NCBI GenBank assembly: GCA_903813345.2 | Contig: CAIIXF020000008.1 | Coordinates: 9,081,278 to 9,145,277, forward strand | Direction: 5' to 3' | From: Owenia fusiformis | Taxonomy: Eukaryota > Annelida > Polychaeta > Sabellida > Oweniidae | DNA: 64,000 bases | Shown: piece by piece, positions 23,801 to 62,014 of the stretch | Position numbering within the stretch: the stretch's first letter is position 1 | Layout of the letters: each line of letters starts with the position of its first letter | The notes under the pieces: model-generated | Seen by the model: only the letters and a program-made list of their open reading frames with translations | Database searches by the model: none | What the model was told of the DNA's origin: nothing | Position numbers and translations under genes: made by a program

Positions 23801-26683
23801 ATGTAATATCCAGGGGTGCATTTCTGTAGATTTTCTTTTACTTATAAATTCCTAATACATGTATAAGTATACATGTAATAATTATGAAATCATGACACCC
23901 ATGATTACAATTCTCCATTTCGCTGTTCGCTCTTTGAATCAGAACGTTCGCATATATGGTGCATATATGTACTCAAAAAGGACAAAATTTGATTGGTCAA
24001 TATTTTTCAACGATGCATTTCGTGTAGCTATTTGTGAGACCCGAAAGTTCTAAATCAAATTAATTACGCAATTTTGTTTTTACACCCGCAAGCTAAATAA
24101 AAAAATGACACCATCGGAATTCTTCTTCTTTGTCATTGAATTAATAGTCAGTATACCAGATTTAATCAATAAAAGATTATACAATTAACAACAAAATTCG
24201 GAAACGAGTATGTAAGATTTGCTTTCGAACCACTAAACTTGACCTAGATAATAGCGACGTGTCTTCTTTGGTCAAATGCTCAGTTGTTTGTGGGTTTTCA
24301 ACGTAACTCTATAATGTAATATGAAGATGAGTACTTTTATTCAGTTGTTGCATCGATGTTACAGTTTGTAGTGCGGTAATATTGGCATGAACGTGTTGAA
24401 AGTCGAATGGAATTGCTTTTTCCAATATGGCGACTAGTCACGTGACTTCTTCTCTTCCGGAATATACTCCCATTTTCAATCATTGTTTTCACCCCGTTAG
24501 GAGCCAATAAAATGAAAAAAAATATATGTTATATAAAGATTATTAAAAGACTAATTGTTTCTGATAGTTTGTTTTCTCCGATCGCATGGAGATTCGATCG
24601 AAAATATCGCTTGAAAAATGGGTATGAAAATCCCCATGTTAAACCAACGGGGAAAAACAAGGTAGAAAAATTTTGTTCCCCCGCGAACTGCATCATGGGA
24701 AATATTTTGACCTTATAAGGAAAAACTTTCGCGCCATCTTTATTAGAGATTCAATACTACCGAATCCGCGATTTTAAGAATTCTATATTAGAGCAAACGG
24801 TTCGGAACTTTTGGATCAACCCTCGTAGAACATTTAAGAATGGCTGGGAAATGCACCCCTGTTTTTTTATTTACTAAAACTTATTGAAGTAGATCATAAT
24901 CATATTTGGCTTTACTATAAGTTTTGTCTCATCTGTCTTATTTAAATTTTTCTTGTCCAGTTTTGATCTTAACTATGCTCCTGCTATTGGTTTATCATGA
25001 AACTTATTAAAAATAATTTGATTAACTCAGTTCTAAATACCTGTGTACTGTTTCAGTGTACTGCTACTTTGAGGTGCCCCAGATGTTCCGCAAGGAGGGC
25101 ATTGACTGTTACCTTCTCCAGTCTGAGCGTGTGGATAACCAGCGTTACATCCTCAGTCTACAGTCAATTGACTGGCCCCATGACACACAGAATAATGCAA
25201 CAAGGCAGCCAGACACCTTACGGTCTACTGTAAGTTTGTTATCCCAATATCAGTACTTTATGTGTTACTGTGAAATACTAATTTGAGGATCAGTTTGGAG
25301 AAGTACTCAAAAATTACACACTGTTTCACAATCTCAAGCACACCTTGTACATGTAAGTTCTTTTATACCCCCTGTATGTTCCCTGGTTTAAGTGATTGAA
25401 AAGTAGGTATTGTATCATTTTGATTGGTACATGTACAGTAAATGACATACCAGACCCTTTTATATGTACATGTATGTACATTTACAGTATAAGCTTATCT
25501 ATAGAAATACATAACAATACAGGAATAAACTTTCATCAAAGTATGCAGGGGTGAGGCTAAATGCTCATTATGTCATCACCAAAAGTGGTGACATGTTGTT
25601 ATTGTCTCCAGCTTTTTTGTGGCGGGTGTTGGGAGGTTGGTGAAATGTTGTTTGGCATATGTAACAGCGTTCAGTTTATAACAGCGTTCGGTGGTCGCAT
25701 CTGTAACATATGGCAGGTTGTGACATTTTGCATGTTAATGCCTTGTTTTGTTTTGTAACCTTACTTTTTATTATAATCAGCACACCAGGCAGCACACTGT
25801 CTGATGGAAATCAAAGGTATTCAAAGTTAAGAGTGTAGGGACTATCTTAAAATAAAATAAAATCAATGAAGAATGTTGATTTATTGACCCGGCCCCTTGT
25901 TTCAGATCTTGCCCTGTGGCTGGCTGATAGAGTCTGCTGTAAAGAAGAAGACTGGGAGACTTCAGTCAATGGTGACCTACTTTATACAGGTATCTTCTCT
26001 TATAATTATATGCTCAATGTTAGTGACCTACTTTGTACAGGTAGCTTGTCTTGTGAATATTCTCAATGTTAGTGACCTACTTTGTACAGGTAGCTTGTCT
26101 TGTGAATATTCTCAATGTTAGTGACCTACTTTGTACAGGTACATGAAGATCCTATTGTAATTATATGTTCAATCTAAGTAACATACATTGTACAGGTAGC
26201 GTGTCTTGTAGTCATATTGTCAATGTTAGTGACATACTTTAGACAGATAGATTCAATGTTTGTGACATGCTTCGTACAGGTAGCTTGTCTTGTAAAATAT
26301 TCTCAATGTTAGCGACCTTCTTTGTGCAGGTAGCTTATTTTGTAAATGTTCTCGATCAATGTTAGTGACCTGCTCATTTCAGGTAGCTCCTCTTGTAAAT
26401 ATCATCAATGTTTAGACATTAGATCAAATATCAGTGGTGCTTGTTTCGTGAAGCTATTTATGATATACTAGTTATTTATTTTAACTAAAATATTTTGTAT
26501 TATATTCAAGGTATATTAATTGCTTCTTTTCAGATGGAGTTGAATGACAGCAAAGAGGGAAGTGGCTCCGTAGTAGAAGAGCTAGTATCCAAACAACCCT
26601 TTGCCATATCACAATTGAGACAATATTTAGCGCCATCTGCCTATGTATCCAGGTCAAGGTCAACATCACAGGAGGATGTTTGA
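17833..26683 (+). CDS. Membrane-anchored protein with two START lipid-binding domains
   Basis: Exons read as 17833-17937, 19428-19490, 19948-20118, 20610-20709, one near 21088-21205, 21567-21660, 21933-22565, 22957-23095, 23512-23720, 25057-25229, 25906-25989, 26534-26683. Residues 1-35 form a signal-anchor (ILIASNILAIVVVIYIFVII). The first START domain is degenerate: VVLNTIKDPTKIQQWNQDVV, then VLVQRDEWLLLVLEVSNDN, YYLAQPVQELNQCMLTVVMH, and RLASLHDYLL. A Ser/Gln-rich linker follows. The second START is canonical: GWVFCGIDKDVVVLKKLY, LPCGWLIESAVKKKTG, LQSMVTYFIQMELND, QPFAISQLRQYL. START folds bind sterols, phospholipids or ceramides in a cavity and move them between membranes. The N-terminal anchor suggests action at a membrane. 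Junctions from exon 7 onward keep phase. The exon near 21088 does not join cleanly in either frame, so its borders or a missing small exon are unresolved. I know of no vertebrate STARD protein with two START domains. Length is about 660-680 residues. AATAAA occurs near 26985 and 27152. Confidence 0.85.
18395..19260. repeat. 60-bp minisatellite in intron 1 of the START gene
   Basis: About 14 copies of a 60-bp unit (TGTACCATTACTGTGCAATG, then TTTACAGAGGGAATGATTGT) are in exact 60-bp register from about 18420 to 19020. Copies with small length changes extend to about 19260. Because 60 is a multiple of three, one frame stays open for 275 codons (18428-19255), which I take as a by-product. Each unit carries a TTTACAG|AG or TTTTCAG|AG that looks like a splice acceptor. 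Confidence 0.88.
23155..23352 (-). mobile_element. Helentron-like element, copy 1
   Basis: It runs from a hairpin-type end (TAGAAGTGGTGACACATTGT) through GTCTCC and GTCTGTAACAAATGGCA to GGTGACATTTTGCATG. The ends and order match the copies at 25569, 42617 and 43603. It lies in a START gene intron, inverted relative to the two distal copies. Confidence 0.6.
23811..24861. mobile_element. 1.05-kb element with CAGGGGTGCATTTC terminal inverted repeats
   Basis: CAGGGGTGCATTTC at 23811 is mirrored by GAAATGCACCCCTG ending at 24861. Beyond 14 bp the ends diverge. No target duplication is obvious and no transposase frame is found. The interior near 24415-24470 has CCAATATGGCGAC, CACGTG and CTTCCGG, a cluster like YY1, E-box and ETS promoter sites. 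It lies in a START gene intron. Confidence 0.6.
25569..25747 (-). mobile_element. Helentron-like element, copy 2
   Basis: It starts TGTCATCACCAAAAGTGGTG, continues through TTGTTATTGTCTCC and ends GTGACATTTTGCATGTTAAT. This is the same family and orientation as copy 1, and it too lies in a START gene intron. Confidence 0.65.
25968..26410 (+). repeat. Minisatellite that copies the exon end and 5' splice site
   Basis: About nine units of roughly 49 bp begin inside the exon 25906-25989 and run into its intron. Each unit contains a version of GTGACCTACTTTGTACAG|GTAGC, which is the last 18 bases of the exon plus the donor. Early copies are nearly identical and later ones decay. The second donor (after 26040) lies 51 bp downstream, so its use would insert 17 residues in frame. 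The next spacing is 49 bp and would shift frame. Confidence 0.85.
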
Positions 26684-28909: not shown

Positions 28910-29310
28910 AGACTAGATGCGAGTAGATATAATCTTTACTTACGTCATTAAATATTCGAAATTCAGTCAAAGTGATGTCATATTTGAAATTTACATGTAA
29001 AAGTACATCTAGAAATATGGTTTCGAAAATTGTTTATCAACTTTGAAAATTTAATTTTTTTTTCTAGTTCGGGTTGATTCCCCATAGACCCCATGTTACA
29101 AAATCACAAAAACTGAAATAATTTTTCTTGTATTAGACAGATAACATTTTCTTTTACTGGAGATATTTTAATTTGAATAACTATTAGATACATAAGGGTG
29201 ATATGAAAATCGAACCACTAAAACAGATTTAATTTAAGTTAAAGAGAACTTTCTCCTATACCCGCCATACTATCTGACCCGAACGAGCCACCTAGTGGTG
29301 GAACTGTGCA
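28910..29310. repeat. Interspersed repeat R1, copy 2
   Basis: It is in direct orientation to copy 1 and shares all its main blocks, such as GATTCCCCATAGACCCCATG and ATACATAAGGGTGATATGA. Its right end, near GCCACCTAGTGGTGGAACTG, directly abuts the truncated end of the UGT relic. Confidence 0.75.
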
Positions 29311-29324
29311 TGTGCGTTATTATC

Positions 29325-29850
29325 CACTTCTTTAAGTACTGACCCAAATGACATGAAGATGACACCATGATTTGCTCTGGCAGTCACAAAATCATCCAGA
29401 TTAGGTGATCGTGGTTGAGGCGGTTTAAATGAAAGACATCCAACTTGAATAACGTTATCCATTAATGGCTTATGATATTCCAGGAGACTGTCTTCGTTTA
29501 TCAGCCATATAAGGGATTGACTCTTCAGGTCTGGGTATACATCAAGTACAGTTTTATTTGGAGCATATTTTCTATATGAAATAGAGCATCATTTTCATAC
29601 TCACCTAAAATCATTTTTGTTTCAAACTGTTTTAACAGGTTGTGCGAATGTCATATATATATTTAGTCCATTGGTCGAAGGGAATGATGGCAAAGCTGGA
29701 GCACCCATTAGGTTAGCTGGAAATGCTGTGGTGAGAGAACAGAATGGAATATTGAGATTGTAAGGTAACGGGGATATCATAATTCTCTGTAATATCATCC
29801 ATCTTTTCATTTTCAAGTAAATGTATTACAAAGTCGTTAATCAGTGTTAA
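29325..29850 (-). pseudogene. UDP-glycosyltransferase (GT1) pseudogene fragment
   Basis: Three blocks in different frames give UGT sequence in the right order on the minus strand. They are LLENEKMDDI then a frame change, YNLNIPFCSLTTAFPANLMG and APALPSFPSTN at about 29660-29770, and then, after at least one more shift, KYAPNKTVLDVYP, IWLINEDSLLEYHKPLMDNV and HGVIFMSFGSV at 29330-29575. UGTs conjugate sugars to small lipophilic molecules. The frames are broken by indels, and the relic stops just after the SFGS motif at the edge of repeat R1. The sugar-nucleotide-binding C-terminus and membrane anchor are therefore missing. It cannot encode a working enzyme. Confidence 0.75.
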
Positions 29851-33644: not shown

Positions 33645-35724
33645 TCAATAACGTGGAATAAATTTTATTGAAGATTCCCTGTCCGGTGTGAACAATATTC
33701 GAAATCTTTTCCCCAGTTCTTTATCTGAACCCCATTCCATTCTAAAGTTCAGTAAAAGCTTTATGAGTAACACATGGATGTCCTGTTCTGCGAATCTACG
33801 CCCGGCGCACATCCGGGGACCGTGTCCAAAAGGCGTCAGTACATACGGATGTACAGATTCTCCCGAACCCTCTCTGAGCCACCTTTCTGGTATATATTTT
33901 TCAGCATCTGAGAAAAACTCAGGTAGCCTTAAGAGGAGGTTATTGTTCAAACTTAGATTGGTCCCAGCAGGGATTTGATAACCACTCACAACAACGTCTC
34001 TGGTGGGTTCCCGAGACACATCGGGGCCTATTGGGAAGAATCTGAAACTTTCTTTGATACACGCTTTAAGATACGGCATCTTCCCGATCATTCGAGCTGT
34101 AATAGGTTCATCCTTATGGCATAAATTTCTTACTTCCTCGAATGCTTTCTCTTGTTGATCTGGGTGTTTTGCAAGGCAATACAGTTGCCAAGCCAGAATT
34201 GGAGCCGTCGTGCTTAGACCATCTGCAAACAGCGACAGTGTTACAATGCTGATGTCTTTATAAGTAAGCTCTTTCCTGCCTAACAAATAAGCCATGAAGT
34301 CATACTTTCCCTCTTGTAATTCCCCACATTCAGAGAGTTCCTTTATCTTTGCCACTGTTTCATCAACTAGGGTTTGTCCAAACCTGAAAGAATAATAGAT
34401 ATATACACAACCCTTAAGGTACAGCTGGAAAATATATAACATTTTGGTAAAAAATTGCTATACCTGCACATGTTATTTTCTGGTACAAAATAAAGTATGA
34501 AGGCATGTGTCAATTTCCTTGCTTTTTCAGGAAAGTATTATTACATTGTCTTCTTTTAGAATATCTGGTAGGAGTTCAATGGGAACTCCAGGAAATTCTG
34601 ATATTTCACACTTTCTATTTTTCCAAATTTTCTTCCAGACAACACAGGAGCTACCATTGACCTGTTTCCAGGTTTACTTAAAGGAGACAGTGTAATGAAA
34701 CTTACTGAAAAAAGCAAGGAAATACACACATGCCTTCATACTTAATTTTATAACATGTGCAGGTATAATTTTATACCAAAATGTGGAGGCAGTGGTACTT
34801 AACAGGAAATGACAAAATAGGAAGTGACAAAAATGTGGCATTATAGACATTTTTGAACAAAGACAACAGAGTTCTGTTTTGACCACCTTACTTGTAAAAG
34901 AAATCCTCAGCGTCCACCAGTTTCTTCCACATAGGGGTACTGATGTATTTGAACAAAGGCAGTTTGAACTTCAGTTTGGTGGACAGTTCTAACAATGTAT
35001 GGTTGCAATTTATCATCTTTTGCGTGTGGCTCTCTTCGCCAGCGTCCAACGTATTTAGCCTTTTCTCAAAACATGTGTAGGTCGCAGATTCTAACGTAAA
35101 CTTTAGGAGTTCATTGTTTATATTAAGCACCTCTCCTGTTGGAGTTTTTATTTGGTTTATCCTGATTATGAAGTCATCCACGACTTCATTAACGAGAGGA
35201 AGGAACGCAGCTGCCGACTTTGGACGCATCATCATCTGTTGTACTGCACTTCTAAGACGGTACCATTCCTCACCATTGACATTACCAAGTCCGGGGGACA
35301 TGTCTCTGTATTTTCTGTACATTTGCATCGTCTCTAGCAGAGGCGGTACATGTGGGGTCTTTCCTTCAATCGCGTATAACTTCTTGATTTCTTCAGGGTC
35401 AAAGATGTGAACGATTGTGTTCCCAGCAATTGTTTCTTTAAATATCGGTCCATATTCCTTGTATCTATCAATAAGAGCATCGGGATAAGTATCAATTGTG
35501 TAGGGTCCCCGGGTGTACTGGAATAGTGTTCCAAACACTGGCAGTCCTCTAGGCCCGGGGATGTCACTAAAAGGTTTAGCATTGTCATATTCTACGTTTA
35601 CTTTTTCTTGTGGTGTTTTCACTGCAGCAGCGACCCGCGAGCTCCATCTTCCCGTATTAAAACTTGGTTTTCCTACACTCTCAATTAAGACTCCAAATGT
35701 CTTCGTGGCCTGTAAAGAATTCAT
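33645..35724 (-). CDS. Mitochondrial-clan cytochrome P450, two coding exons
   Basis: Exons 34892-35724 and 34383-33645 join in phase (TAC AA|G TTT) to give 523 residues, the usual length for the family. The N-terminus (about 40 residues, Arg/Lys/Ser-rich, no acidic cluster) reads as a mitochondrial import sequence, followed by the proline hinge FSDIPGPRGLPVFGTL. Exon 2 carries the I-helix FADGLSTTAPILAW, the K-helix KESFR, PERW, and the haem loop FGHGPRMCAGRRFAEQ with its cysteine ligand. The GRRFAE ending is typical of the mitochondrial clan, whose animal members hydroxylate steroids, vitamin D-like compounds or xenobiotics with electrons from adrenodoxin. The I-helix has Ser where most family members have Asp or Glu before the conserved Thr. 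Substrate cannot be inferred. The gene is divergent from the gene starting at 36786, 1.06 kb away. Confidence 0.92.
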
Positions 35725-36785
35725 ACTGAATGCTGTATGATCGGTCGAGTTATGTCCTACGTGTACTGATAGACGTTTTATGTTTGAGATTGCACTTTAG
35801 CCCCAAACAAATTCTTGTGAAGAACATACATTGTACAACATACGTGATAGTATGCTCCAGGGTGAAAATATCAATGTTCCTTCCACTAAAAATTGATTTT
35901 ATAAGTGAGTTGTAAGTAAACAAAATTGCACGAGACAATGGATCATTTAGTTCCAGCAACTGTAGTCTCCAAAATGCTTTTCACCCCTGGAATAACTGAA
36001 TTCATTGAATTGCTTCCGGGAAAAGTTGATATTGACATTTCCGTTTTAGTAATAACATGTATTCATTGAAAGTTGAAACCATATTAAGCTTGCATCGTTT
36101 CACATTCAAAAATGATTTGGCTGCAATCCATATGGTATTTCACACAATGAAATGCTAATATAAAACCTAATTCAATCTGGATTAAGTATTATGATATTAT
36201 TATACCTTAATCCAACCTTGCAAACGGATGATTTTTTCGTTTTTAAGAAGATAAAAACCAAGTCTTCTTGTCATTTACTTGAAGAACAACAATTCAATCC
36301 ATTCGTAACATCTCCACTGCTCTTAAAAGCATAAAGTGGAATAAAATGAAAGGGTGCCCCATTGTAAATCATGTAGAATTCATATAAATCCAATCTAATT
36401 TCAAAGGTGAGTGATTACATAAGGTTTCTTTAACAGTCCATGGTTACAGTGATTGATATATGACGATGATCCGGATAAACAAATATCAACAATCATGACT
36501 GCTATGCCTCATTCTGAGATTATTTATTCGATGGAGAACAAGTTTTGAAGACACACGCCTTTTTGTGCAGAACACACGGAAAATTAAGAACAATATATTA
36601 AGTAAAAAGGAAGCAGAAAAAGGAGTTAATATTAAGACACATGAAAAAATAAATTTTAACTTATTTTGCAGCAACAGATCACAGGGGGGTATATGGGGAC
36701 AAATTAATTTCAACTCTATAGCAACAAAAATTAACACAACGCACTGAAGAGCAACTAATAATTACAATACGATAGACGTCCGAAA
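35725..36785. other. Shared upstream region of the P450 and the 36786 gene
   Basis: A 1.06-kb head-to-head spacer that should hold both promoters. It is AT-rich. I see no clear TATA box, CpG-rich tract or repeat in it. Confidence 0.4.
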
Positions 36786-43602: not shown

Positions 43603-46360
43603 AAGGCATTAACATGACAAAATGTCACCACCTAGTTGCTCACAATATTATGAGTTCAAACTTAAGTCAGATTTGAATTTCTGAGAACTTGTAAAGTCAA
43701 ATTTGAACTTCTGAAAAGATGAAGATGATTTTGAAAAAAAAATTTGGTCAATTTGAAGCAAGTTGAAAACAGACCTTTTTGACCTTTTTTGACCTTGAGA
43801 AGGTCATTAAAGGTCAAATGTCAAATCTAAAGTCAGATTTGAATTTCTGAGAACATGTAGATGATTTTGAAAAAAAAAATTAGTCAATTTGAAGCAAGTT
43901 GAAAAAAGACCTTTTTGACCTTTTTTGACCTTGACAAGGTCATTGAAGGTCAAATGTCAAATCTAAAGTCATATTTGAATTTCTGAGAACATGTAGATGA
44001 TTTTGAAAAATTTTTTAGTCAATTTGAAGCAAGATGAAAAAATACCTTTTTGACCTTTTTTGACATTGAGAAGGTCATTGAAGGTCAAATGTCAAATCTA
44101 AAGTCAGATTTGAATTTCTGAGAACATGTAGATGATTTTGAAAAAAAGAAATTAGTCAATTTGAAGCAAGTTGAAAAAAGACCTTTTTGACCTTTTTTGA
44201 CCTTGACAAGGTCATTGAAGGTCAAATGTCAAATCTAAAGACATTATTGAATTTCTGAGAACATGTAGATGATTTTGAAAAAAAATTTAGTCAATTTGAA
44301 GCAAGATGAAAAAATACCTTTTTGACCTTTTTTGACATTGAGAAGGTCATTGAAGGTCAAATGTCAAATCTAAAGTCAGATTTGAATTTCTGAGAACATG
44401 TAGATGATTTTGAAAAAAAAATTTAGTCAATTTGAAGCAAGTTGAAAAAAGACCTTTTTGACCTTTTTTGACTTTGAGAAGGTCATTGAAGGTCAAATGT
44501 CAAATCTTAAGTCAAATCTAAAGTCAGATTTGAATTTCTGAGAACACGTAGATGATTTTGAAAATTTTTTTTAGTCAATTTGAAGCAAGTTGAAAACAGA
44601 CCTTTTTGACCTTTTTTGACCTTGAGAAGGTCATTGAAGGTCAAATGTCAAATCTTAACTCAGATTTGAATTTCTGAGAACACATTGATGATTTTGAAAA
44701 AAAAATTTAGTCAATTTGAAGCAAGTTGAAAACAGACCTTTTTGACCTTTTTTGACCTTGAGAAGGTCATTGAAGGTCAAATGTCAAATCTAAAGTCAGA
44801 TTTGAATTTCTGAGAACATGTAGATGATTTTGAAAAAAAAATTTAGTCAATTTGAAGCAAGTTGAAAAAAGACCTTTTTGACCTTTTTTGACTTTGAGAA
44901 GGTCATTGAAGGTCAAATATCAAATCTTAAGTCAAATCTAAAGTCAGATTTGAATTTCTGAGAACATGTAGATGATTTTGAAAATTTTTTTTAGTCAATT
45001 TGAAGCAAGTTGAAAACAGACCTTTTTGACCTTTTTTGACCTTGAGAAGGTCATTGAAGGTCAAATGTCAAATCTTAAGTCAGATTTGAATTTCTGAGAA
45101 CACGTAGATGATTTTGAAAAAAAAATTTAGTCAATTTGAAGCAAGTTGAAAACAGACATTTTTGACCTTTTTTGACCTTGAGAAGGTCATTGAAGGTCAA
45201 ATGTCAAATCTTAAGTCAAATCTAAACTCAGATTTGAATTTCTGAGAACACTTAGATGATTTTGAAAAAAAAAATTTAGTCAATTTGAAGCAAGTTGAAA
45301 ACAGACCTTTTTGACCTTTTTTGACCTTGAGAATGTCATTGAAGGTCAAATGTCAAATCTAAAGTCAGATTTGAAGGTCAAATGTCAAATCTTAAGTCAG
45401 ATTTGAATTTCTGAGAACATGTAGATGATTTTGAAAAAAAATTTAGTCAATGTGAAGCAAGTTGAAAAAAGACCTTTTTGACCTTGAGAAGGTCATTGAA
45501 GGTCAAATGTCAAATCTTAAGTCAGATTTGAATTTCTGAGAACACGTAGATGATTTTGAAAAAAAAATTTAGTCAATGTGAAGCAAGTTGAAAACAGACA
45601 TTTTTGACCTTTTTTGACCTTGAGAAGGTCATTGAAGGTCAAATGTCAAATCTTAAGTCAGATTTGAATTTCTGAGAACACGTAGATGATTTTGAAAAAA
45701 AAATTTAGTCAATTTGAAGCAAGTTGAAAACAGACATTTTTGACCTTTTTTGACCTTGAGAAGGTCATTGAAGGTCAAATGTCAAATCTTAAGTCAAATC
45801 TTAACTCAGATTTGAATTTCTGAGAACACTTAGATGATTTTGAAAAAAAATTTAGTCAATTTGAAGCAAGTTGAAAACAGACCTTTTTGACCTTTTTTGA
45901 CCTTGAGAAGGTCATTGAAGGTCAAATGTCAAATCTTAAGTCAGATTTGAAGGTCAAATGTCAAATCTTAAGTCAGATTTGAATTTCTGAGAACATGTAG
46001 ATGATTTTGAAAAAAAATTTAGTCAATGTGAAGCAAGTTGAAAAAAGACCTTTTTGACCTTGAGAAGGTCATTGAAGGTCAAATGTCAAATCTAAAGTCA
46101 GATTTGAACTTCTGAGAACATGTAGATGATTTAGAAAAAAATTGAAGTCAGTCTAAACAGTATTTGTTAAGTTATAGGAAGTTGTAAGAAATTGTTACAG
46201 ACGCCGGACGCCAACCGCCGGACGCCAACCGCCAACCACCAACCGCCGGACGCTGTCGCAAAAAAACGGAGACCATAACAATATGTCACCACTTTTGGTG
46301 GTGACATAAAAAAAAACGGAGACCATAACAATATGTCACCACTTTTGGTGGTGACATAAT
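43603..46360 (+). mobile_element. Helentron-like element, copy 4, carrying a 2.5-kb satellite
   Basis: The left end (AAGGCATTAACATGACAAAA, TGTCACCACC) and right end (GTTACAGACGCCGGACG, ACGGAGACCATAACAATATG, CACCACTTTTGGTGGTGACA) match the other three copies. The space between is filled by the satellite at 43660-46145. The right terminal block with its hairpin (stem TATGTCACCAC) is present twice in tandem. A terminal hairpin plus internal tandem repeats is the layout of non-autonomous Helentron or pearl-type elements. The superfamily is an inference. Confidence 0.7.
43660..46145. repeat. Satellite: about 18 copies of a ~140-bp unit rich in AGGTCA half-sites
   Basis: The block GAATTTCTGAGAAC recurs 18 times from about 43674 to 46107, on average 143 bp apart. 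Each unit continues ATGATTTTGAAAAAAA, TTAGTCAATTTGAAGCAAG, TTTTTGACCTTTTTTGACCT, TGAGAAGGTCATTGAAGGTC. Some units have small insertions such as a second AAATCTTAAGTC, and two (near 45480 and 46050) lack one TGACCT. Confidence 0.92.
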
Positions 46361-49047: not shown

Positions 49048-52000
49048 TTACTGCTGTACCCACACGTGCGATGAATCACGTGGCTCAGAATGCAACATGA
49101 CCTCCGTCTCAGCTGCATGTGATTCATCTACATTCCCAGCATCCCCAGATGTACCGGCACTGGTGAGATTGTTATTCAGTTTCTGTTTATGCGGTGCCCT
49201 ATTTGTGGCCAAAGTCCTGGGGTTTGGAGGGGGCTGTCTCAACCTCTCCTGTAACTCTTCAGCTTCACACTCTGTCAGTGATTCGAGCTCATGAATTTCA
49301 CTAGTTGTCACGGTTGAATGATTTTGATACCCTACACTTGAACTACTTAATGTGGATTCAGACAATGCGTAAACAGTCTTATCGACGTGGTGACGTTGGG
49401 AGGATGAACAACAGTTTGATGATGGCCAGTGGAACTGACTAAATCCACCTTGAGGACCAATAAGGCGTAATAATGACTGGAAGAAGAGTGTGGAATATAC
49501 CCAAGAGATTGTCATAATGAGCATGAGGAATATACCAAGTTGCCTGTAAGCGAGCACTGTTGCCGGGGTCATCATAGCGCCTGCCAGGAATGTTGTAGCT
49601 GCTGCCATGGTAACGGGACTTCCCATGCGTGCTGTAGAGCAAATAACACGCATTTCACGATCGAGATCTGGGGATAAGCGATACGCTACCCCGTAATGTA
49701 ATGTAAAGTCTATGGATAGCCCAACTGAAATTGTAAGAGTTACAGATTCTAATATGTTCAGTTGCCAGCCTAGGAGGGTCAGAACTGCAATTGTTACGCT
49801 AATCGTGCTGCTTATTGACAGAAAGGCATATAAACTGACTAACACGTTCAGCGTTGTAATAAATGTCACTACTAGCGCTACAGCTACTGAAGCTCCAACA
49901 CTCAGTGGTGCCCCCTCTAATATACTTTTTTGTAAACTGTAGAATTCTAATTCACTGATAAACCAGCCTCGTCGCATACCAGATGGCGCTGTAGTCTCTA
50001 CTTGGTACTCTACCCATGTACTCATGCGTGAATAATAATTGTTTATCTCGTCATATTTATAACTAAATGGCACTTTACTGTTGAACTGTATAACTGCAGC
50101 TACAATCTCCTCCCTAGAGTCTTTAGAGTACCTAAGTCCTGCATACTTATTATGAGGAAACCTGGCCTTAGTTCTTGTTAATAATGGGGCCCATGACCCC
50201 ACACACTCCATAAATTTATGCTCTGGAATGGGGATACTGGAATACCCACAGCATATGTCTGTCTCTAAGATACATTTTCTCCTGGCAAAATTTTCAAGCG
50301 ATTCAATGAAACAGTTTGTAAGTTGGAGTCCAGGGGATGATTTGTAGAAAGGGTGAGCACGTATTTTCCGGCAGAATGACCGCAGCCAGATCTGAGATTC
50401 TTCCGCAGCTATGTTGAATGTCTCATCACGCACAAGGGCACCATGATTGTTTGGCTCTCTGGGAGCTAAATAGCTACCATTATCCCTTGGCTCAACTCCA
50501 AAAACAAAAGTCATGGGTAAAGTATACATGCTCTGTCCTGCAGCTTTCTCAAAATAAAACTCATCTTTTAGTTTGAAATCATAGATCTCAAATAGATGTT
50601 GAGGGGAAAATACTTGGAATTCATGTGAAGAAGGCAGCTTAAATCTTGGCTTGTAGAATATAATAATAAGTCCACCAATGCCCATAAGGCCGAGAAAAAT
50701 CACCCATACAAATCGAAGTTTAACAACGATACATGGTAGTAACTTTTCAAAAAATATCCGTGACCAATCAGCAATTTGTAGGTATGCTTTATATGGTATT
50801 TTACAAATATAGTAACAAATGCCTCTTTTGGGTGTATAGATGTCAGGGCTGTAGCAGACGCAATAGTTACTACACCACTTGTCATACATAACAATAGTCG
50901 CTGGAATCCAAGTCACCATGAGCAGGAAGTTGGCCAGTATGGCTGTTCCAGAATATATCGCAAAGCACCGTAATGCTGTCACATGGCTTATGTAGTTTGT
51001 ATACAAAGCTGCAGCTGTCGTAAAACTTGTGACAAACATTGATAAAGTAGCATGTTTTATGGTATCTGATATTATTTTCTCCAAAGTTCCATTATTTTTT
51101 TCTGATTTCGCCAGGCTCCAAACTTTTGTGTAAATAAACATATCGTCAGCACCCACACCTATCAGAATCACTATTGTCATCAGATTCATAAACGGGAAGA
51201 ATTTAATTTCAAAAACGAGCGTGTAGAGGAAGTATGATATCTCTAACGAAAGGAGAATTGAGAGCAATGTCATGCCAGTGATGAAGAATGATGTTGTGTA
51301 GAGCCACATACAGAGCAGAATCACGAATAATGCAACACCAAGCCACATAGTATCACCTTGGAGATATTCATTAAACAATATGTTCTTGATTCCAAAATTG
51401 ACACCCCCTATGGCCGTAGTTCCAATCTGTAACTCCTTTTTCGTCATAAACTCAAATATCGGCACAGTGTCCTTCCCAGCACTCATTGGTAAGAATGCAA
51501 TGGCATAACGCAGAGGACCAAGATGTCCGCTCTCTGTAGTGAATTCAACATCTGTGATGTAATGAAGAATTTGATACACTGCATTGTGTTGTTTACATTC
51601 AGTAGGCACTGATTTACATTTATCGCTAGAGCTTCGTTCACAATCAAATTTCAAGGTCATATTACGATAATATCCAGAACATCTTTCCAACAGATCCCTC
51701 ACACTCCCAACATCCTCTTGAGTGATATCACTACAGTTTGTTTTATCCCGGAGCAGCGCGATATAGTTCCCTAGTGACCAGCTACGCTTGCAGCAATGGG
51801 CTTCCTCTGGGTGTTGAGCAATACACAGCTGGGAGTAAGAGGGGTGGAGATGTATACTGTTACTCTCAAGGGAACACATATCAAGTAGATGTCTCAGAGA
51901 AAACAGGTCACTTCCATCTGTGCTCTTGTAAGCAACTCTTGCATAAGTCATTCCTGGAAACACAACAGCATGCATTATAGTAAAATACTTAACAGTGAAC

Positions 52001-55000
52001 TACATCACAGGACAGTAATAGCATACAAGACAAAGAGGTTCTGGTATAAGTATCTGTGTAAGATCGTCCATTTTTGACGATCTTTTATGATTCTTCTAAA
52101 TCGAGTTGAAGATGAGATAAAGAGACATTATCTGTGCGAAACAAGAATGGAGAATATTGCACAGGTACATGGGTGTGCATGGCAACAAAGCTCCATTGCA
52201 TGAAAGTGGGTGCTGGATAATAACACACATCATAGTGGCAAACTTGAGTGTAACATACATCATAGATACAACATGCATCTTTATGTACTTAATATTACAG
52301 AACTTAGCATTAATACAAAACTTGTAAGTTTATCAATATCTATAGAGAACTTGACAAAGGCTTGATTGAAAAGGACAATATTCTCATAAGTTTTTGTAAA
52401 TTATGTATTACAGTTAAAAAGGATATTTTTAATTCACGGATTATCGAAAAGCCTATGTGCTGTTCTTATACTCAGGTTAATTAGCATATGTTTGAAGTAA
52501 TAAATTACATAAGAGGCTTTAGAAACAATTATTTCCAAGGGTCGTCACATTTATTGCTTTTTATTTTAAATAACAATTACTCTACACGTCGATATATCAT
52601 TGTGCTTATAACTAATCATAATAGGAAATATAAGCACACAAGACATATATATGACAGGTTTCTAGGCTGATGTCTATCTACAGACAGAGAAAATAGAATA
52701 CAAATCAGATTGCTACATATCCACCCAGATGATTTGATGGCTTTCATGGTCTCAACAATCTCAAATGAATACTTAATGGCAAAATGTAAGCTACTTTATA
52801 AGCGGAAATTGAAGCATCATGATTTTCTATGTAATATATATTCTGGATGTATGCCTGAGCAATAAATTACTTTTGATCTAAAGAATAAATAGACAAAGTC
52901 AGGCTCACACTAAGAGTACTATAGTACTACGCACCTGGAGTATCACCACAGAAAAACCAGGGATCTTGTCTCGTAGCTCTCCCATATCGCCTTGTTCCGT
53001 TACCACGCCCAGAGTGTGGGGTACGTCCTTTTGACTTCCTTCGCCCAATATCTGTCTGGGTGGAATCTAACAAATTCTCCCAAGTAACAAAACGATTGCT
53101 TAGCTCAGTACCCCTCACCTCAAATCCCTGAAAGTACATGAGGATCTACATGAATAAAGAAGTTAATAGAAACACATACGGCTTAAAGAAGAAGCATGTG
53201 CTCTTCAAATACCGGACTTAAACAACTTATCGAGCATGGGCAAATATTACACAATGATGAACACTATATCAGTACAAAGACTAATAGCAAAAACAATAAA
53301 TAAAATCATGATAACACGAAGATGCTATGAAGTGTAATATAATACAAGGTACAATATTAGATTTACATTTTTAGACATTTTTTACTCAAAGAACTATTCA
53401 ATCTTAAGTCTCTCATAAGCCGGAGCCGGCTGAGCTGCTGTTTTAATCAATTGTATCAAATATTGTACAGCGTGAGACTCTAATAAATACCTTACTTACT
53501 TACTAAAAAATATAAAGTTTAAAACATAATATTTAACAAATAAAGTTCAGTGTATGAGGTTCAACATTCAGTTAACATGTGAGGTTTAACATATTAGGTT
53601 TAACACATCAAGTTAAATATGTGAGATTTAATATACGATGATACGTGGTGTCATGATCCTGAATTTTCATCCATGTTTCTAGTCATATTTTTTGCTGGCA
53701 TTTAAAATCTTGTGTCTTGTTTGAAATCATGACAATTTTTACCAAAACACTAAAATTCATGAAATATCATTTACAACAAAATATATCAATCATAATAGTC
53801 AGGCCCGTAGCCAGGGGGGATTCGCAGGGTTCGGGCGAACCCCCCCCCCCCTGGCCAAAAATTCTTTCAAAATCATGCAGTTTTTCACCATTTTTGAGCA
53901 CTTCTTAAGTGATTTTAGCCATATTTGGGCCAAAATTGTCAAATGTGAACCCCCCCTGGAAATTTTTGAAAAATGAACCCCCCCTTGGCAAATCCTGGCT
54001 ACGGGCCTGATAGTGCTGAACATTCAGAATTGCAGAGCGATTGAGTTTGCAAATTCTATGAGAACAGACTGATTCATATCTGACCCAGAAGAGCTTCTCT
54101 GACATCCCGGCATTGCCAATTAAAACAGTTGGTCGAAGTATAACTCAGTTTCTATGCAAAGATTAAGTATTACATGTACATGTATTTCAATTACGGACTG
54201 CACTGTGATCATATCGATTAAAACAAAACTTTGGATGCTCTTTCAAATCTAGAAAGGTAAGAACATTCATTCTGACATCGTTCAACCCAAAATGAACCTC
54301 CTTTTTTGTCGCTAAAATGGCTTCCATTCGACTCCTTTATACAATCTTAAATGTCCATATATTTTTTGATTACTGACTTTTTTCAAAACATCCCAGTTGG
54401 CTGACAATGCATCTTATCGATGAAAAATTTATCATTTCAAATTTGTTAATTTAATTTGACGAGTCAAACTCCCGAATTCATTGAATTTAATAAAATCAAA
54501 TTCACTTCCAGAGATGCACATTGAGCATAAATTAGCCACACCATATTGACTGAAATTGTCAGTGCCCTCCTATATCATCCTCCGATCACAGGGCTTCAAA
54601 ATCCAGAACACATGCAACTTTTATGTTGAATTTTTCTCAAGAAAACAAGAAGTTTAATGCGATTATTTACACAAGATATCGATTGATGATTATAATTAAT
54701 TCAGAGAAAGAAATCCAGGAGCTGTATAGAGCTCAATAAACCTTAATGTTAACCTTAATAATAACAACTAAAAAGATTATTTGATTATTTCTGCACTTTT
54801 TATATGTGCACTTATTTGAATCTCTCAATATCTTACCCTTTTAAATATCAATTTGGAAACTGCATTGTGTGCTCATTAGAGAGAATACGGTGTATTAAAT
54901 ATATCAGATAAAAGGAATAAAAACATTATCTGTTTTCTTTTCATTTCTGGCATGAGTTCATTATTCTTAAGATAACAGTAATTTTTACTTTTAGATGTGA

Positions 55001-58000
55001 TAAAAATCAGATTAAATATGTGTAGGAACTCGAATTATAATTCCAAGAAAGGGTATCAAATTAATTCCCCATCAGGGGACCCAACACTTCCTTCAAAGTA
55101 TCGAACGTGAGTAGGCTTAGAAAGAAAAGAAGCTGTGACACATGATTCAAATGGCAATGGCTTCTATATTAGGTTATTGACATTGACAGGAGAGAGCATC
55201 TGACTTCCAAGGTTGATTTTTATAAGGGATTGTTTCAGTGTTAAAAGACATAAAGTCATAAAAGACATACTGATATAGAGGTATACAAACATGTAAAATG
55301 TTGAAGGTCAAGGTCATCAAATTAGGGTCACAAAAGCTATTATCTAAGTTTGTCTATATGTTTGTCTATATAAGTAGATCAATATCTTTATACTAAAACT
55401 TGGAAATGCATACATTTTACTGACTTTTGATTCACTGACCCTTTTTCATGACCTCTTATGTTCAATTACATGACAGTAAATTGACCTATCAACATGTCAA
55501 ATTAATTATTAAATTACATGCCTGCAATCTGATCATTTTATATCTTCTTCAATCTAATTTCTTTAAACTGCTGAAGTCTCTTTAGTATTAGAAAAACAAA
55601 TTACGAAACGTGGACATCTGATGCTAGGTTTATTGAACATCTCAGCATTAATTAATAATTGTCACCGGATGTTTCACTGTCAAAGGAAGTGATGGCTTTC
55701 GATTTGATGCAATCCTGGAGTTTCTCATATATCATCCCAATTGAAAAATAAAACTAATTACCAACTTATTACCAACTAATTTACAACTAATTATCAACAA
55801 TTCTGCTGGCAATTGGAATTAAAGTTAAGCGTTAATTAAATCAATGATAATTATGGCCTAATTATCAGTAGCAAGTTCAACGTAAATTAACTTACAATAA
55901 TGCTGATTTATGATTTTTAGTTGATAATTAAGATATGAAATGTTTGAGGGTGATAGTAAGTGGTAAATTAAAACGTTTTTGGTCTGAAGTAGATAATTGG
56001 TTGATAGTTAACATATAGGATGATTATAATGATAATTAGTTGTAAATTAGGCCCATGATTTAGAAATACAAACCCCCTAAATTTAATTTCAAGATGGTGG
56101 AAAAAGAAAACATGTGAGAGATATTTCTCTCATAAAATTGAGAATTACAACGTGAATGGTGCGTATACTACCATGAAATTTGGTCAACATTATTATAAGG
56201 GTATGTAGAACATGAATACAATGTATGTTAAATCTTATTCACACTTCTGTCTGAAATGTTTATGAATTTAAAAATCTTTTTGAATCAGATCACATAATAT
56301 TAATCCTAGAATGCAATTTAGGTACTAACATGGGTTACCTATATTTCACAAGTAATCCAAATGTGCTCTTCTAAATAATGATTGTTAGATCAAAGACATT
56401 TCAAAACATATTTTTGATTATATCTGTTACGTCCTTATTATGTAACATTATAGTCTAATGTTTGTGTTCTGATTTTAGTTGTATATGGCAATAATGATGT
56501 TTTCACATGCTTTTCATGAATCTTAAAAATTTGCAAAATAGAATTAAAAAAGAGGGGGAGAAACCCCAGGGTTCAAAGATGACATATGCTTATAATGTAA
56601 ATCTGTATTGAGATAAAATCGTCGCTGATTGGTTTATCGAGTCGATCATTGATTGGTTTAAATCTAGGTCAATTTGAAAACTTTAAAAACCAAGATGGAG
56701 GGTACGTTTTCGACAAAAGGAGGTGTGCGAAGGAGGAAATCTTATGTCATCAATTGAATCATGGGGTTTTCCCTCCTCTTGCTGTGAAATTTCAATAGTT
56801 CAAGTTCAGTGTTGTCTGTTCTGAAAGATCTTAATTAAGATGAATATTCCGTCACAAAATAGTTCAAGATGAAGCAAAAATCTCCGAGTGAAGGGAAGCA
56901 AAAAAGAAGCGAGTCATTTTTGAGATGTCACAAATCTGACTTAAACCTAACTTTCAACTAATTATCAATAGTAAGTTAGGTGATAATTAGAGATTAACTT
57001 ACATCAAACTTACAACTAACTTTCAACTAATTTACGTAAATAGCTCATTTGCATATTGATGGTAGTTAATCGTTAATTAAGTTGCAAATTAAGCGTTAAT
57101 TAAGTTGATAATTAGCTCATTTGCATGTGAATTTTTACACCTAACTTTCAACTTATTATCAATAGTAAGTTAGGTGATAATTGGAGATGATTTTCCATAG
57201 GCTTTTTTCAATTGTTAACAGATTATGAAACTTGGACACGTGATGATGCAAGGTCATTTGAATTCCTCAACAGATATTTATAATTATCATCAGATCCCGA
57301 TGTTCCACATTTAAAGGAAGCAACTGGCTTTTGACTTGATAATATCTTTGAACTAAGTACAGATTAAGTATTTCATCTCATACTCCATGGCAGTGCAATT
57401 AGTCTTCAACATACCACTGTAGACTAGTTTCTACTGTGGCGTTTTATAAAGCTATTTCCAACAAATTTTGACTATTTATCCATCTACCAGCCAACATGCC
57501 TATTCCAAGACACTGCCATGGGAGTTTGGTTTCACCTATCACTTGGCCATCAACAAATATATTTTGTCAAAGTATCAGGCTATATAAAAACAGAACCTCA
57601 GGGGATTAGCAAATCAAACAGAACATAACATATTTTACCAAATCCCTTGTCATTTTGAAGTTTTTTGATAGAAATACAGCCCAAAGAAAAGACTCAAAAA
57701 GTAATGATCTACTTGTTTACTAGTGTGTGTGCCATACATGTTATCTTTCAAGGCTAGATGTGTACTTGAGGCATTGTTTTATAATTAAGGGCTCAAAGAG
57801 ATGAAGTCCTGGGTCAAGCAAATGTTTAGTGATAAGTGACAAGTAAACCCTTGACCCAGATGTTTTGACATGCTTAATTTTGTATTTGACTTTATGACAT
57901 TCAACAGGAGAACTAAAGGTATGTACATTCTTAAAACGCAATTTCTGTACTAGTTTATCAAATGAGGTATATCATACATGTTATAATGCCCAACAGTTTT

Positions 58001-61000
58001 AGTTTGTAGAACAAATTGGAAATTATGATAAAAAATCTATATATTTTGAATTCGAAAAATTCTGTGTATTTTAAAGTGTCTCACATATTCGATCAAAATT
58101 TGCCATGCAAACATGTTAGTCTACTTTACTGGCCCTCCTTGCTGTAACAAGGAACCCAAAACACATTAAAACGTAAACATAAACCAATTAGTCACTTCAC
58201 TATGAAAGTGAGGGGTGTACGCTGTGTGCATGGACTAACACAATATCAGTGGTCATTTACTGTGTCAACTTAGTAACCCTTGCATATCGTGCTCACTCAA
58301 GTATTGAATAATTTTTTTATGACCTAAATGTTTGTGGTTTATAAAAAAAAGTGATATATTTTAGTTAGAGATACATTAATTAATATATTCATTCAAACAG
58401 CTCTAGAATGCGGGAAGAAAGAGCAATGGTGACAAAATGCAGACAGAATCCGTAAGGGTTTCAAACATTTCTGAACACAATCATACATGTACTTCATGTG
58501 TACTGTTATTTTTAGTGCTGTATTTATAGATATAATTTCACGTATTAAAATCATATTTTCCAGCAATGACTTCAAATTCGGAACCACACCCATATCACAT
58601 TTTCTTCGATAACTCCAAACATGTGTAAACATTGACCATGTGCATATAAATTCAGATTTCATGAGCTCTTTCCCATTCGAGTACCTCATACACCCCTGCA
58701 TGGATTTGAGTTGGATTCGCCTTTTATACGTGAGCCGACACACTCGCAAACGCTGATTGGATAAAGATTGCGAGAATCTTTAAGAGAATTCCAAAAGTGT
58801 CCCCAACCAACTTATTTATAATCTATTTCTTAGGGAGGCAAATAATATGGCAAGAAGCAAAATTAATCATGAACTTGTATGTATTATATTAGGACTAATC
58901 CATGAAATCTTAATCTAGATGCTAATAGTGATGCAAATAGATAGTGATTAAATGAGCGAAAAGAGGCGTAAGGAAGCGTTTTGAATGTCAGATAAAATTA
59001 CATGCTTAAAATGTAGATTTCAGAAGAAAGATGATAAGTTCCTTTTAGTCTGTCGCAATCTTCTAACAGCATTCTCTCGAAGCTAGTATTTGCCATAGGG
59101 CGATTCCGAGAATGTTATCCAAATGAGTTGAATCCTCTTATCTGATTGCTAAATATCGATAAAGTCACCTTTCACGACCATTAACGAATTCCCTACAGGG
59201 GAATATATAAACTCGTTGACATTAACTTTCCCATCTTCATGTTTATCACCTCTCACAACTTATTCTTTAATATCTTCATGGTTATTAACTGTTTCACATT
59301 TACATATGTAAGTGTTCCAAGGCAATTATTCTTTTATTAACTTTTTCACATCTATATATATTTGCAACTTACTCTTTCACTTCTACTCTCACATCTACGT
59401 GCATATTCGCTCTTGTGCAGTAACTCTCTCAAATCAATGCTTATTAACTCTTTCACATCTATTGTACATAACTTCATAAAGTGGGACAAAATCTGGTATC
59501 AATGAAACCTTTAATTATTACCTCTCTTACATAAAAATGATTTTCCGACTTCACAAACAACTCAAGAGTTGAATAAAACAAAAATCAAAGACAACTTGAC
59601 AACAGACAAATCAACCTCCACTGGAACATCATGGAAGAGAGCTTTTTAATCTAAATGGATAAATCTTGTCATAAAATCTAGGGTTGTAGTTCATTGATTC
59701 CAATAAGAGCTAAGTAGAAATTGAAAGGGGTCTTGACTTCAGGGTAGGCAGAGTAGAATGACTAAGCTCGCTTAATAACTTGGAACTTTTACAGTAGGTT
59801 TATACAACTGGGCAACAAGTGGGTGTCCTACAATAGACCCAACATGTTTGTTGTCTGATGAAGCCATATGATATCATGACAAAAGCATCCTAGTCTGACA
59901 AATAGGACGGTGTAACTCAAATATTGAAGATCACAATATTTTATTTGGCTTTCACGATGTTGCTTTGACAATATTGCGTAAGGCTATTGAGTTAAGAGAA
60001 TTATACATATTGTTTTCCACAAAATGATACTTTTACATCATTTCTTGTCTTCTATAGATTGACATGGCTGTGTTTGTGAAGAATGATATCACCAGTACAG
60101 GGGCAGATACACTGAAGCTACAACTGGACATGCTAGCTGTGCTGGAGGCTAACATGCTAAACGGAGAACACAATGGTCTCATCACCTACCACTTTGCAAG
60201 GCCTGACCCAAATGATCCATACAGAGTTCAGTACATTGAGGTATTCAACATTCTGTTTGTAAAGGGTTCAGTGCATTGAGGTATTCAACATTCTGTTTGT
60301 AAAGGGTTCAGTACATTGAGGTATTCAACATTCTGTTTGTAAAGGGTTCAGTGCATTGAGGTATTCAACATTCTGTTTGTAAAGGGTTCAGTACATTGAG
60401 GTATTCAACATTCTGTTTGTAAAGGGTTCAGTACATTGAGGTATTCAACATTCTGTTTGTAAAGGGTTCAGTGCATTGAGGTATTCAACATTCTGTTTGT
60501 AAAGGGTTCAGTGCATTGAGGTATTCAACATTCTGTTTGTAAAGGGTTCAGTGCATTGAGGTATTCAACATTCTGTTTGTAAAGGGTTCAGTGCATTGAG
60601 GTATTCAACATTCTGTTTGTAAAGGGTTCAGTGCATTGAGGTATTCAACATTCTGTTTATTTTGTATTTAGAGTTCAATAATCGAAGTATTTAAGATTTT
60701 GCAGGAGAGAGCTGTTTGATTATTTCCTGTGATAATATACATGTAATAAATACAGACTTTTATTTGAATTCTTTTTACTGCAGGTATATGGAAGTCCGGA
60801 GTCATTTGTAAATCACTTAACACCTGAAGCAATGGACCTCTTGACCACAAACCTAGCCCCAGCCAACCTCACACGCTTTGACAAGAACATCTTTGGCACT
60901 AACCTTGATAACAACCAGGACGTGTTGGATATCCTCAAGCCATTTGGAGTTGATAAGATGCCTAATATTGCCAAGGGGTATATCCTTCACCCTAATGCAA

Positions 61001-62014
61001 TATTCAAAGATTCCCTTAGTGATCAAAAACCAACAATGGTGGACTTCATCATGAAGACAAAACACAGGGAAGATGTGAAATCCCAGATTGATGAACTTGT
61101 CAAGATGGCGAAAGCTGACATTCTTACAATGGCAGCAACAGAACATGATGACATCATAGAGTTGACAGAGATTTGTGGTAGCAACAGTGCTCTAGTGAAT
61201 CACCTAGGTGCACCAGAGGCCAAGAGTATTATTGGCAAGATGGAGTCACTCTGTGAGAGTGTTTATGTGAATGTATACGGGGAGACGCACGAAGGGACCA
61301 AGGAGATGCTGAAGGATTTTGGGTTTGAGACTAATTATATTAATACAGATGCTGGTTTCATACTTAACCCAAACCCCGATAGCAATGGAAAGTGAAGAAG
61401 TGTTATATCACTCTTAAATACTGTAGTTATTCAGGAAAATACTTTGCTCAAACCAAAGCTTATTAAAGGACAAACCAATATTATGATGTCATCCTAAAAT
61501 ACATTCATTGCATTCAGGGAACTTATCCCTAACTATGATTATAAATTGTCAACAATCAATTTGTATCAATCAAATAATCAAGGTAAATAATTATAAAGTA
61601 TAGTAAGGTTTCAGCACACACACTGCCCCCAGAGTGGCAAATCCCTCCCAAAAAACATATTTTAAATCAAATTGCTTCTCAACCAAATCTTGATGTTTTA
61701 TCGGAAATTTTTGAGCAAATATCAGCTTATAAAGTCTGAACCAAATCAATTAACTGGTATTTGAGTTAATTGCCGGTCAGACATATGGATGGTCAAAAAT
61801 AGACAGACAGATGGCTTCTCTATATCCCTATTCAAACTTAGTTCGGTTGGATAACTATAAGGTACAATAACTACAACAAGGTATACTCACTGCCTGAGGG
61901 TCAGAGAAATCTGGCATCTCCCCTGTGGTGATTGTGACAACGAGACATGTGGCGGCTAAAACTATCACACCACCTATCACAACATACGGGTAGTGTGCCA
62001 ATATTCTAGAGTAG
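49048..62014 (-). CDS. Dispatched-family RND transporter (3 exons; N-terminus outside window)
   Basis: Exons 61891-62014, 52935-53127 and 49048-51953 join in phase and give about 1070 residues. Dispatched exports lipid-modified Hedgehog from producing cells, using a cation gradient. The first exon gives TM1 (HYPYVVIGGVIVLAATCLVV) and PDFSDPQA. The second gives GFEVRGTELSNRFVTWENLL and ends in DPWFFCGDTPG. The 2.9-kb last exon carries a Cys-rich first lumenal domain, the sterol-sensing TM2-6 block with GVGADD in TM4, a second lumenal domain, and TM7-12 with SVGLSIDFTLHYGVAY in TM10. The paired acidic motifs in TM4 and TM10 are those of proton- or sodium-driven RND proteins. The cytosolic tail is Ser-, Glu- and Pro-rich. 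The gap between exons is nearly 9 kb and contains a plus-strand gene. Which Dispatched paralogue this is cannot be settled by eye. Confidence 0.93.
53800..54009. mobile_element. MITE with CAGGCCCGTAGCC ends, copy 2
   Basis: The 210-bp near-palindrome has CAGGCCCGTAGCCAGG and CCTGGCTACGGGCCTG ends. It is flanked by the 5-bp direct repeat ATAGT (53795-53799 and 54010-54014). It lies in the large Dispatched intron. Open frames crossing it are repeat sequence. Confidence 0.85.
54015..60063. other. Large Dispatched intron, mostly unassigned
   Basis: Apart from the features listed separately I see no exon. A diverged direct duplication links about 55595-55710 (ACGAAACGTGGACATCTGAT) with 57228-57350 (ATGAAACTTGGACACGTGAT). 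The stretches 55740-55930 and 56940-57185 are built from repeated AT-rich words such as AACTAATTATCAATAGTAAG and GTTAATTAAGTTG, some in inverted orientation. Confidence 0.4.
56940..57185. repeat. AT-rich direct and inverted repeats
   Basis: CCTAACTTTCAACTAATTAT, with CAATAGTAAGTTAGGTGATA, occurs near 56946 and again near 57130. Between them are palindromic TTAATTAA words. Related words occur at 55740-55930. It may be the ends of an old element of about 1.4 kb. Confidence 0.45.
60064..61395 (+). CDS. Uncharacterised two-domain protein, possibly ABM-like alpha/beta barrel, nested in Dispatched intron
   Basis: Exons 60064-60240 and 60784-61395 join in phase to 262 residues. An acceptor (CTTCTATAG) lies just before the ATG, so a 5' exon upstream is likely and the N-terminus could be longer. 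I do not recognise an orthologue. Two segments look like copies of one domain: GLITYHFARPDPNDPYRVQY with IEVYGSPESFVNHLTPEAM, and ADILTMAATEHDDIIELTEI with CGSNSALVNHLGAPEAKSII. A beta strand ending in an acidic residue, then a helix with S-x-x-x-x-x-H, resembles dimeric alpha/beta-barrel (antibiotic biosynthesis monooxygenase-type) folds. That is inference only. No signal peptide or membrane segment is seen, so a soluble protein is expected. It is transcribed opposite to the host gene. Confidence 0.72.
60226..60660 (+). repeat. 40-bp minisatellite copying exon end and 5' splice site
   Basis: Ten full copies and one partial copy of a 40-bp unit (GTATTCAACATTCTGTTTGT then AAAGGGTTCAGTRCATTGAG) fill most of the intron. 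The first 15 bases at the exon end (GTTCAGTACATTGAG) and the donor GTATTC are part of the unit, so the true donor at 60241 is followed by about ten near-identical decoys. Copies differ at essentially one A/G position. The intron read-through frame meets a stop within the first unit. Confidence 0.92.

Follow-up and report, generated by a model that had tools for sequence, protein, structure and literature searches.

How does an exon keep its end when the 5' splice site that marks it stands in a row of eleven identical copies, how might such a row arise, and does the splice site itself promote the copying? These questions are raised by a tandem array at positions 60226-60658 (plus strand) of the window, the term used here for the whole stretch of DNA analysed (64,000 bases, 34.2% G+C, no N). 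The array is probably a boundary minisatellite, or "mirage": a segment straddling the end of an exon and the start of the intron would have been duplicated in tandem, with effects close to neutral and with splicing at the first donor.

Structure and Age of the Array

Tandem Repeats Finder, run on the 64-kb window, resolves the array into 10.8 copies of a 40-bp unit with 98% matches and 0 indels. The unit begins 15 bases upstream of the donor at 60241 and extends 25 bases into the intron; its first 15 bases are thus exonic and the remainder intronic, and these 15 exonic bases recur with the donor in each copy of the array, if the boundary is placed where the reading frame suggests. The donor 9-mer, GAG|GTATTC, is found in identical form eleven times, at 60241 and then at intervals of 40 bases up to 60641. 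Unit position 8 is the sole variable site in the ten full copies; over copies 1 to 11 it reads A G A G A A G G G G G. A 30-base core of the unit is present at 11 places in the window but absent from all 100 dinucleotide shuffles, and it has 0 exact matches in viral_contigs. The first-pass annotation of this DNA had described a donor-including 40-bp unit that starts within the exon and is repeated about ten times with almost no divergence, and had spoken of a donor-copying minisatellite with equal donors; both descriptions are confirmed.

The array had also been called "younger", which is doubtful: although its inner copies hardly differ from one another, a diverged copy probably lies at 60670-60701 (plus strand). 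Aligned in register with the exon end and donor, this stretch scores 36, a value reached by 2 of 2000 dinucleotide shuffles and by 3 of 1936 overlapping plus-strand windows, all three at a single locus; its donor now reads GAA|GTATTT (-3.07 bits), and it retains AGAG like the exon, where the inner copies read AGGG. Because two other sites in the window align at the higher score of 41 (near 53.5 kb on the plus strand and near 30.1 kb on the minus strand), its identification rests on place and register; with this moderate support, it is probably a decayed edge copy. The left edge copy is undiverged within its 40 bases and differs in its upstream flank alone; divergence is thus seen at one site inside the array and, probably, in the copy beyond its right edge. 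With a diverged copy probably standing in register at 60670-60701, the array may predate what its inner copies suggest; on this reading, the likeness within the array would date its turnover, not its origin.

The Nested Gene and Its Host

The gene that carries the array is nested, in antisense orientation, inside an intron of a Dispatched homologue. This host intron (53128-61890, minus strand) is flanked by exons at 61891-62014 and 52935-53127; joining these two exons gives a sequence whose match to Dispatched structures runs through the exon-exon junction (best E 3.5e-13). The earlier designation as a nested gene therefore holds, as minus-strand exons on both sides encode the Dispatched homologue. 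The Dispatched-like gene as a whole (49048-62014, minus strand) also has a sterol-sensing domain match.

The exon that ends at the array (60058-60240, plus strand) was called by the gene finder; it is preceded by an acceptor-like TCTATAG, contains an ATG at 60064 followed by 59 codons to 60240, ends in phase 0, and has an open frame that joins the next exon. The last coding exon of the nested gene (60784-61395, plus strand; 203 codons and a stop) follows a good acceptor, CTGCAG|GTATATGG. Among the eleven donors, 60241 alone yields an uninterrupted frame of 262 residues (60064-61395). The two halves of this 262-residue protein align without gaps across the junction (VQYIE|VYGSPESFVNHL with IELTE|ICGSNSALVNHL) at a score of 64; shuffled sequences average 38.2 (s.d. 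6.7), and 8 of 3000 reach this score. The alignment suggests an internal repeat that backs the junction, but a weak one, as the best BLASTP match between the halves covers only 6 residues. By eye, the halves may resemble ABM-type domains. Pfam contains no credible family for the whole protein (best E 0.092), and searches with the separate halves gave E values of 0.019 and 0.07 for one half and no match for the other. The protein has no match among solved structures (PDB) or in plasmids, and none was confirmed in genome_contigs (20 pattern stretches). The fold predicted for the last exon alone has a mean pLDDT of 38.2 and was set aside. Taken together, frames and homology point to splicing of the nested gene at its first donor.

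This putative functional donor (60241-60246, plus strand) is weak. By a generic donor matrix it scores 0.24 bits, the second lowest of 18 donors, the lowest being 19490 at -0.08 bits; among the GT dinucleotides between 60201 and 60783, scores above zero are confined to the eleven GAG|GTATTC sites. The ten decoy donors with the same 9-mer (60281, 60321, 60361, 60401, 60441, 60481, 60521, 60561, 60601 and 60641; together 60281-60646, plus strand) all lead to the same in-frame TGA at 60277-60279 (plus strand), a stop at codon 72, and the claim that every decoy introduces a stop is true of this array. Predicted RNA accessibility was considered as a cause of first-donor choice and rejected, the first donor (0.015) being indistinct from the decoys (0.004-0.025).

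A Second Donor-Spanning Array

A second array at 25972-26412 (plus strand) has a 49-bp unit, spans donor 25990 of a StAR-like gene and contains eight AGGT donors; it starts 18 bases upstream of donor 25990, and its main row in Tandem Repeats Finder has 79% matches. Its host gene was recognised by similarity to STARD4 (E 6.1e-4), and in Pfam it has a sub-threshold match only. An alignment of the 49-bp with the 40-bp unit scores 19, below the average of 21.4 for shuffled sequences; no relationship is seen between them, which suggests independent cases. The assertion of two independent cases in 64 kb is borne out if the other case is taken to be this array. The junction made by the first donor, QSMVTYFIQ|MELN, aligns ungapped to QSLLTGYIQTDLR of STARD4 and provides parallel support for first-donor use in another gene. 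Measured from the first donor, the introns are 543 nt (60241) and 544 nt (25990) long; measured from the last donor, 143 and 151 nt. In the StAR-like gene, use of decoys 3-8 would run into stops, but decoy 2 would lengthen the open frame by 17 codons; because of decoy 2, the rule that all decoys lead to a stop is limited to the array at 60226-60658.

An intron of the StAR-like gene also contains a 60-bp x 13.7 array at 18403-19228 with a 275-codon open frame encoding a 20-residue repeat; a unit length of 60, divisible by 3, keeps this frame open, and it is probably incidental.

Comparison With Known Boundary Repeats

Tandem repeats over exon/intron boundaries were termed "mirages" in the amphioxus Adh3 gene and the globin genes BflGb6 and BflGb9 (PMC3087553). 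That report describes regular splicing as undisturbed, the clusters as unstable in length and in somatic tissue, and the cluster edges as escaping homogenisation, and suggests a role for mirages in intron gain (PMC3087553). Like the amphioxus repeats, many of which include AG/GT signals (PMC3087553), the array at 60226-60658 is a tandem array of minisatellite size that crosses an exon/intron boundary and carries splice signals in its copies; it differs in that all eleven of its copies share one donor sequence and only a single site varies. The unit measures 40 bp here, versus 10-72 bp in Adh3 and 150-160 bp in the globin genes, as printed (PMC3087553). Judged by the structural features of its sequence, the array clearly adds a new member to a class of repeats known from other animals.

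The extra donors of human IFI6 (6-16, G1P3) act by in-frame addition. They belong to a minisatellite with multiple splice donor sites (Turri et al. 1995, cited in PMC4526556), and in IFI6 as in the nested gene the donors are carried by the repeat units (PMC4526556). In contrast to the extra IFI6 donors, which are reported to give rise to other protein isoforms (PMC4526556), 10 of 10 decoys at 60226-60658 run into the stop at codon 72; decoy 2 of the 25972-26412 array, with its 17 additional in-frame codons, is closer to IFI6. Introns can also be gained via tandem duplication of an AGGT segment (PMC3443670; PMC2891723), a process that has in common with the present array an AG|GT segment copied in tandem. 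In the accounts given there, the copied exon segment becomes the new intron (PMC3443670; PMC2891723), whereas at 60226-60658 an existing intron has been lengthened, and continues for 125 nt past the array to the acceptor at 60783. Among the titles listed by a limited literature search, none was seen that surveys the exon ends of a whole genome for tandem repeats.

Origin of the Array and Choice of the Donor

The array probably originated by tandem duplication across the boundary, followed by turnover through slippage or unequal exchange. Selection would hold the first, coding copy, while inner copies would homogenise and the distal edge copy would decay. Its chief effect would be to lengthen the intron, to 543 nt from about 143 nt with a single copy, and it would be close to neutral. 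Since the exon would be defined from its upstream acceptor, the nearest donor across the exon should win, and this is 60241; the exon measures 183 nt by way of the first donor, and 223 to 583 nt by way of the decoys. Leaky decoy products would be removed by nonsense-mediated decay. This account gains from the observations that the first donor alone keeps the frame open, and that the ungapped alignment of the protein halves (8/3000) fits the junction.

Given two identical donors and flanking introns of 365 nt, minigenes were spliced exclusively at the upstream donor (Carranza and colleagues, PMC9225289). When the equal donors were weakened, the upstream preference was retained in the smaller constructs M and S, and the larger constructs L and XL were preferentially exon-skipped (PMC9225289). 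With a 183-nt exon and a 543-nt intron, exon definition and use of the first donor would be expected in the nested gene, provided that a rule of donor choice derived from human sequences can be carried over to this animal. Of the proposal that the spliceosome has to pick the first among many equal donors, the equality of the donors stands; the choice itself is less of a puzzle, given the exclusive use of the upstream donor in the minigenes (PMC9225289).

Several observations count against this account. In the genomic survey of human exons reported alongside the minigenes, the downstream donor is favoured between short introns (PMC9225289), and the distance from decoy to acceptor falls from 503 to 143 nt, compared with 543 nt for the first donor; a conflict in choice could arise at the final decoy, which only 143 nt separate from the acceptor, as short introns favour the acceptor-proximal donor (PMC9225289). 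The weakness of donor 60241 is another, as weak equal donors resulted in exon skipping in constructs L and XL (PMC9225289). The accessibility values, which do not single out the first donor, the faintness of the internal repeat behind the junction and the undiverged left edge copy weigh against the account as well.

Do Splice Donors Seed Duplication?

From the two arrays, the first-pass annotation had concluded that 5' splice sites seed tandem duplication. Formulated as active seeding by the 5' splice sites of this genome, for instance by way of R-loops or breaks where exons end, with donor-spanning arrays recurrent and enriched, this hypothesis is weakly supported and in our estimation unlikely. 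The assessment drew on 17 introns and on 23 exons picked by hand (18 donors, 22 acceptors), the gene finder yielding many false ones, and on 24 arrays merged by hand from 45 Tandem Repeats Finder rows; random placements were restricted to those that leave coding sequence unbroken. Donors are spanned by 2 of the 24 arrays, where 0.21 are expected at random (P for two or more, 0.018), and by 2 of the 9 arrays that comprise at least three copies (0.06 expected, P 0.002), both results being post hoc and fragile; acceptors are spanned by 0 of 24 arrays across the 22 placed acceptors (0.30 expected). The excess of donor-spanning arrays in the window is a hint, found after the fact with arrays that were picked by the finding itself. 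Counting donors and acceptors jointly changes P to 0.087 (24 arrays) and 0.0125 (9 arrays), and with a threefold number of donors a simple Poisson sum gives 0.21 and 0.07, respectively.

The two arrays are alike in geometry, with 15 and 18 exonic bases in their 40- and 49-bp units, and the probable decayed copy at 60670-60701 hints at repeated events at one donor; both points would suit seeding, but the edges of the arrays are found 15-18 bases upstream and 25-31 bases downstream of the donor, not at it. Clear downstream copies of a donor's own context are restricted, in the 17 introns, to the two array donors (0/1000 shuffles); the remaining 32 splice contexts show no clear copy, which argues against seeding. 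Three of these 32 (donors 23721 and 25230, and one acceptor) have likenesses reached by 18, 16 and 16 of 1000 shuffles, the expected number of such contexts being about 0.6; the first two may be counted in favour of seeding, and the third, being an acceptor, against it. The likenesses at donors 23721 and 25230, both in the StAR-like gene, are short, weak and gapped, and lie 45 and 110 bases downstream (23721-23815 and 25230-25370); they are possibly decayed donor copies, or due to chance. In amphioxus, 5' and 3' boundaries are both affected (PMC3087553). As a caveat, a boundary array that keeps its outermost donor leaves the mRNA unchanged, so that the excess cannot tell seeding from tolerance, and tolerance of boundary arrays accounts for it equally well.

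It is very unlikely that the decoys at 60226-60658 are functional, either as a length-dependent brake, in which transcripts with a premature stop are degraded, or as a row of U1 sites that aids a weak donor. The weakness of donor 60241 and the same early stop behind ten of ten decoys would be compatible with such a function, and human IFI6 does use downstream repeat units as donors, with three mRNA species as the result (PMC4526556); yet the near-identity of the inner copies resembles what neutral turnover would produce, and the 40-bp unit has stops in all three frames, so that a stop behind the decoys requires no selection. The wider conjecture, in which donor-spanning minisatellites recur here beyond what tolerance would allow and rows of identical donors in many genes, differing in copy number from one individual or cell to another, tune output via decoy splicing and decay, appears similarly improbable. 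An assembly artefact, with the copy number inflated or collapsed, is hardly credible: near-identical 40-bp copies are difficult to assemble, and the draft of one amphioxus cluster was apparently misassembled according to its authors (PMC3087553), but the interleaved A/G variants and the probable diverged edge copy suit a real array.

Such arrays are natural experiments on spliceosome choice, offering ten perfect competitors, detectable penalties and graded distances to the acceptor. Should boundary repeats prove frequent beyond the few described cases, they would generate variable introns and, as proposed for mirages (PMC3087553), open a way to new intron positions.

Other Features of the Window

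The repeat types of the window may point to a lophotrochozoan. A large array at 43692-46141 has periods of 136, 284 and 420 bp, with about 16 copies of the shortest, and is followed by short repeats such as CGCCGGACGCCAAC. On the minus strand, a long open frame at 579-1772 matches family 2 glycosyltransferases, and a UDP-glucuronosyltransferase-like open frame at 29292-29588 covers part of the family profile only. A cytochrome P450 gene at 33645-35796, also on the minus strand, consists of two large open frames with Pfam E values of 1.3e-60 and 4.4e-24.
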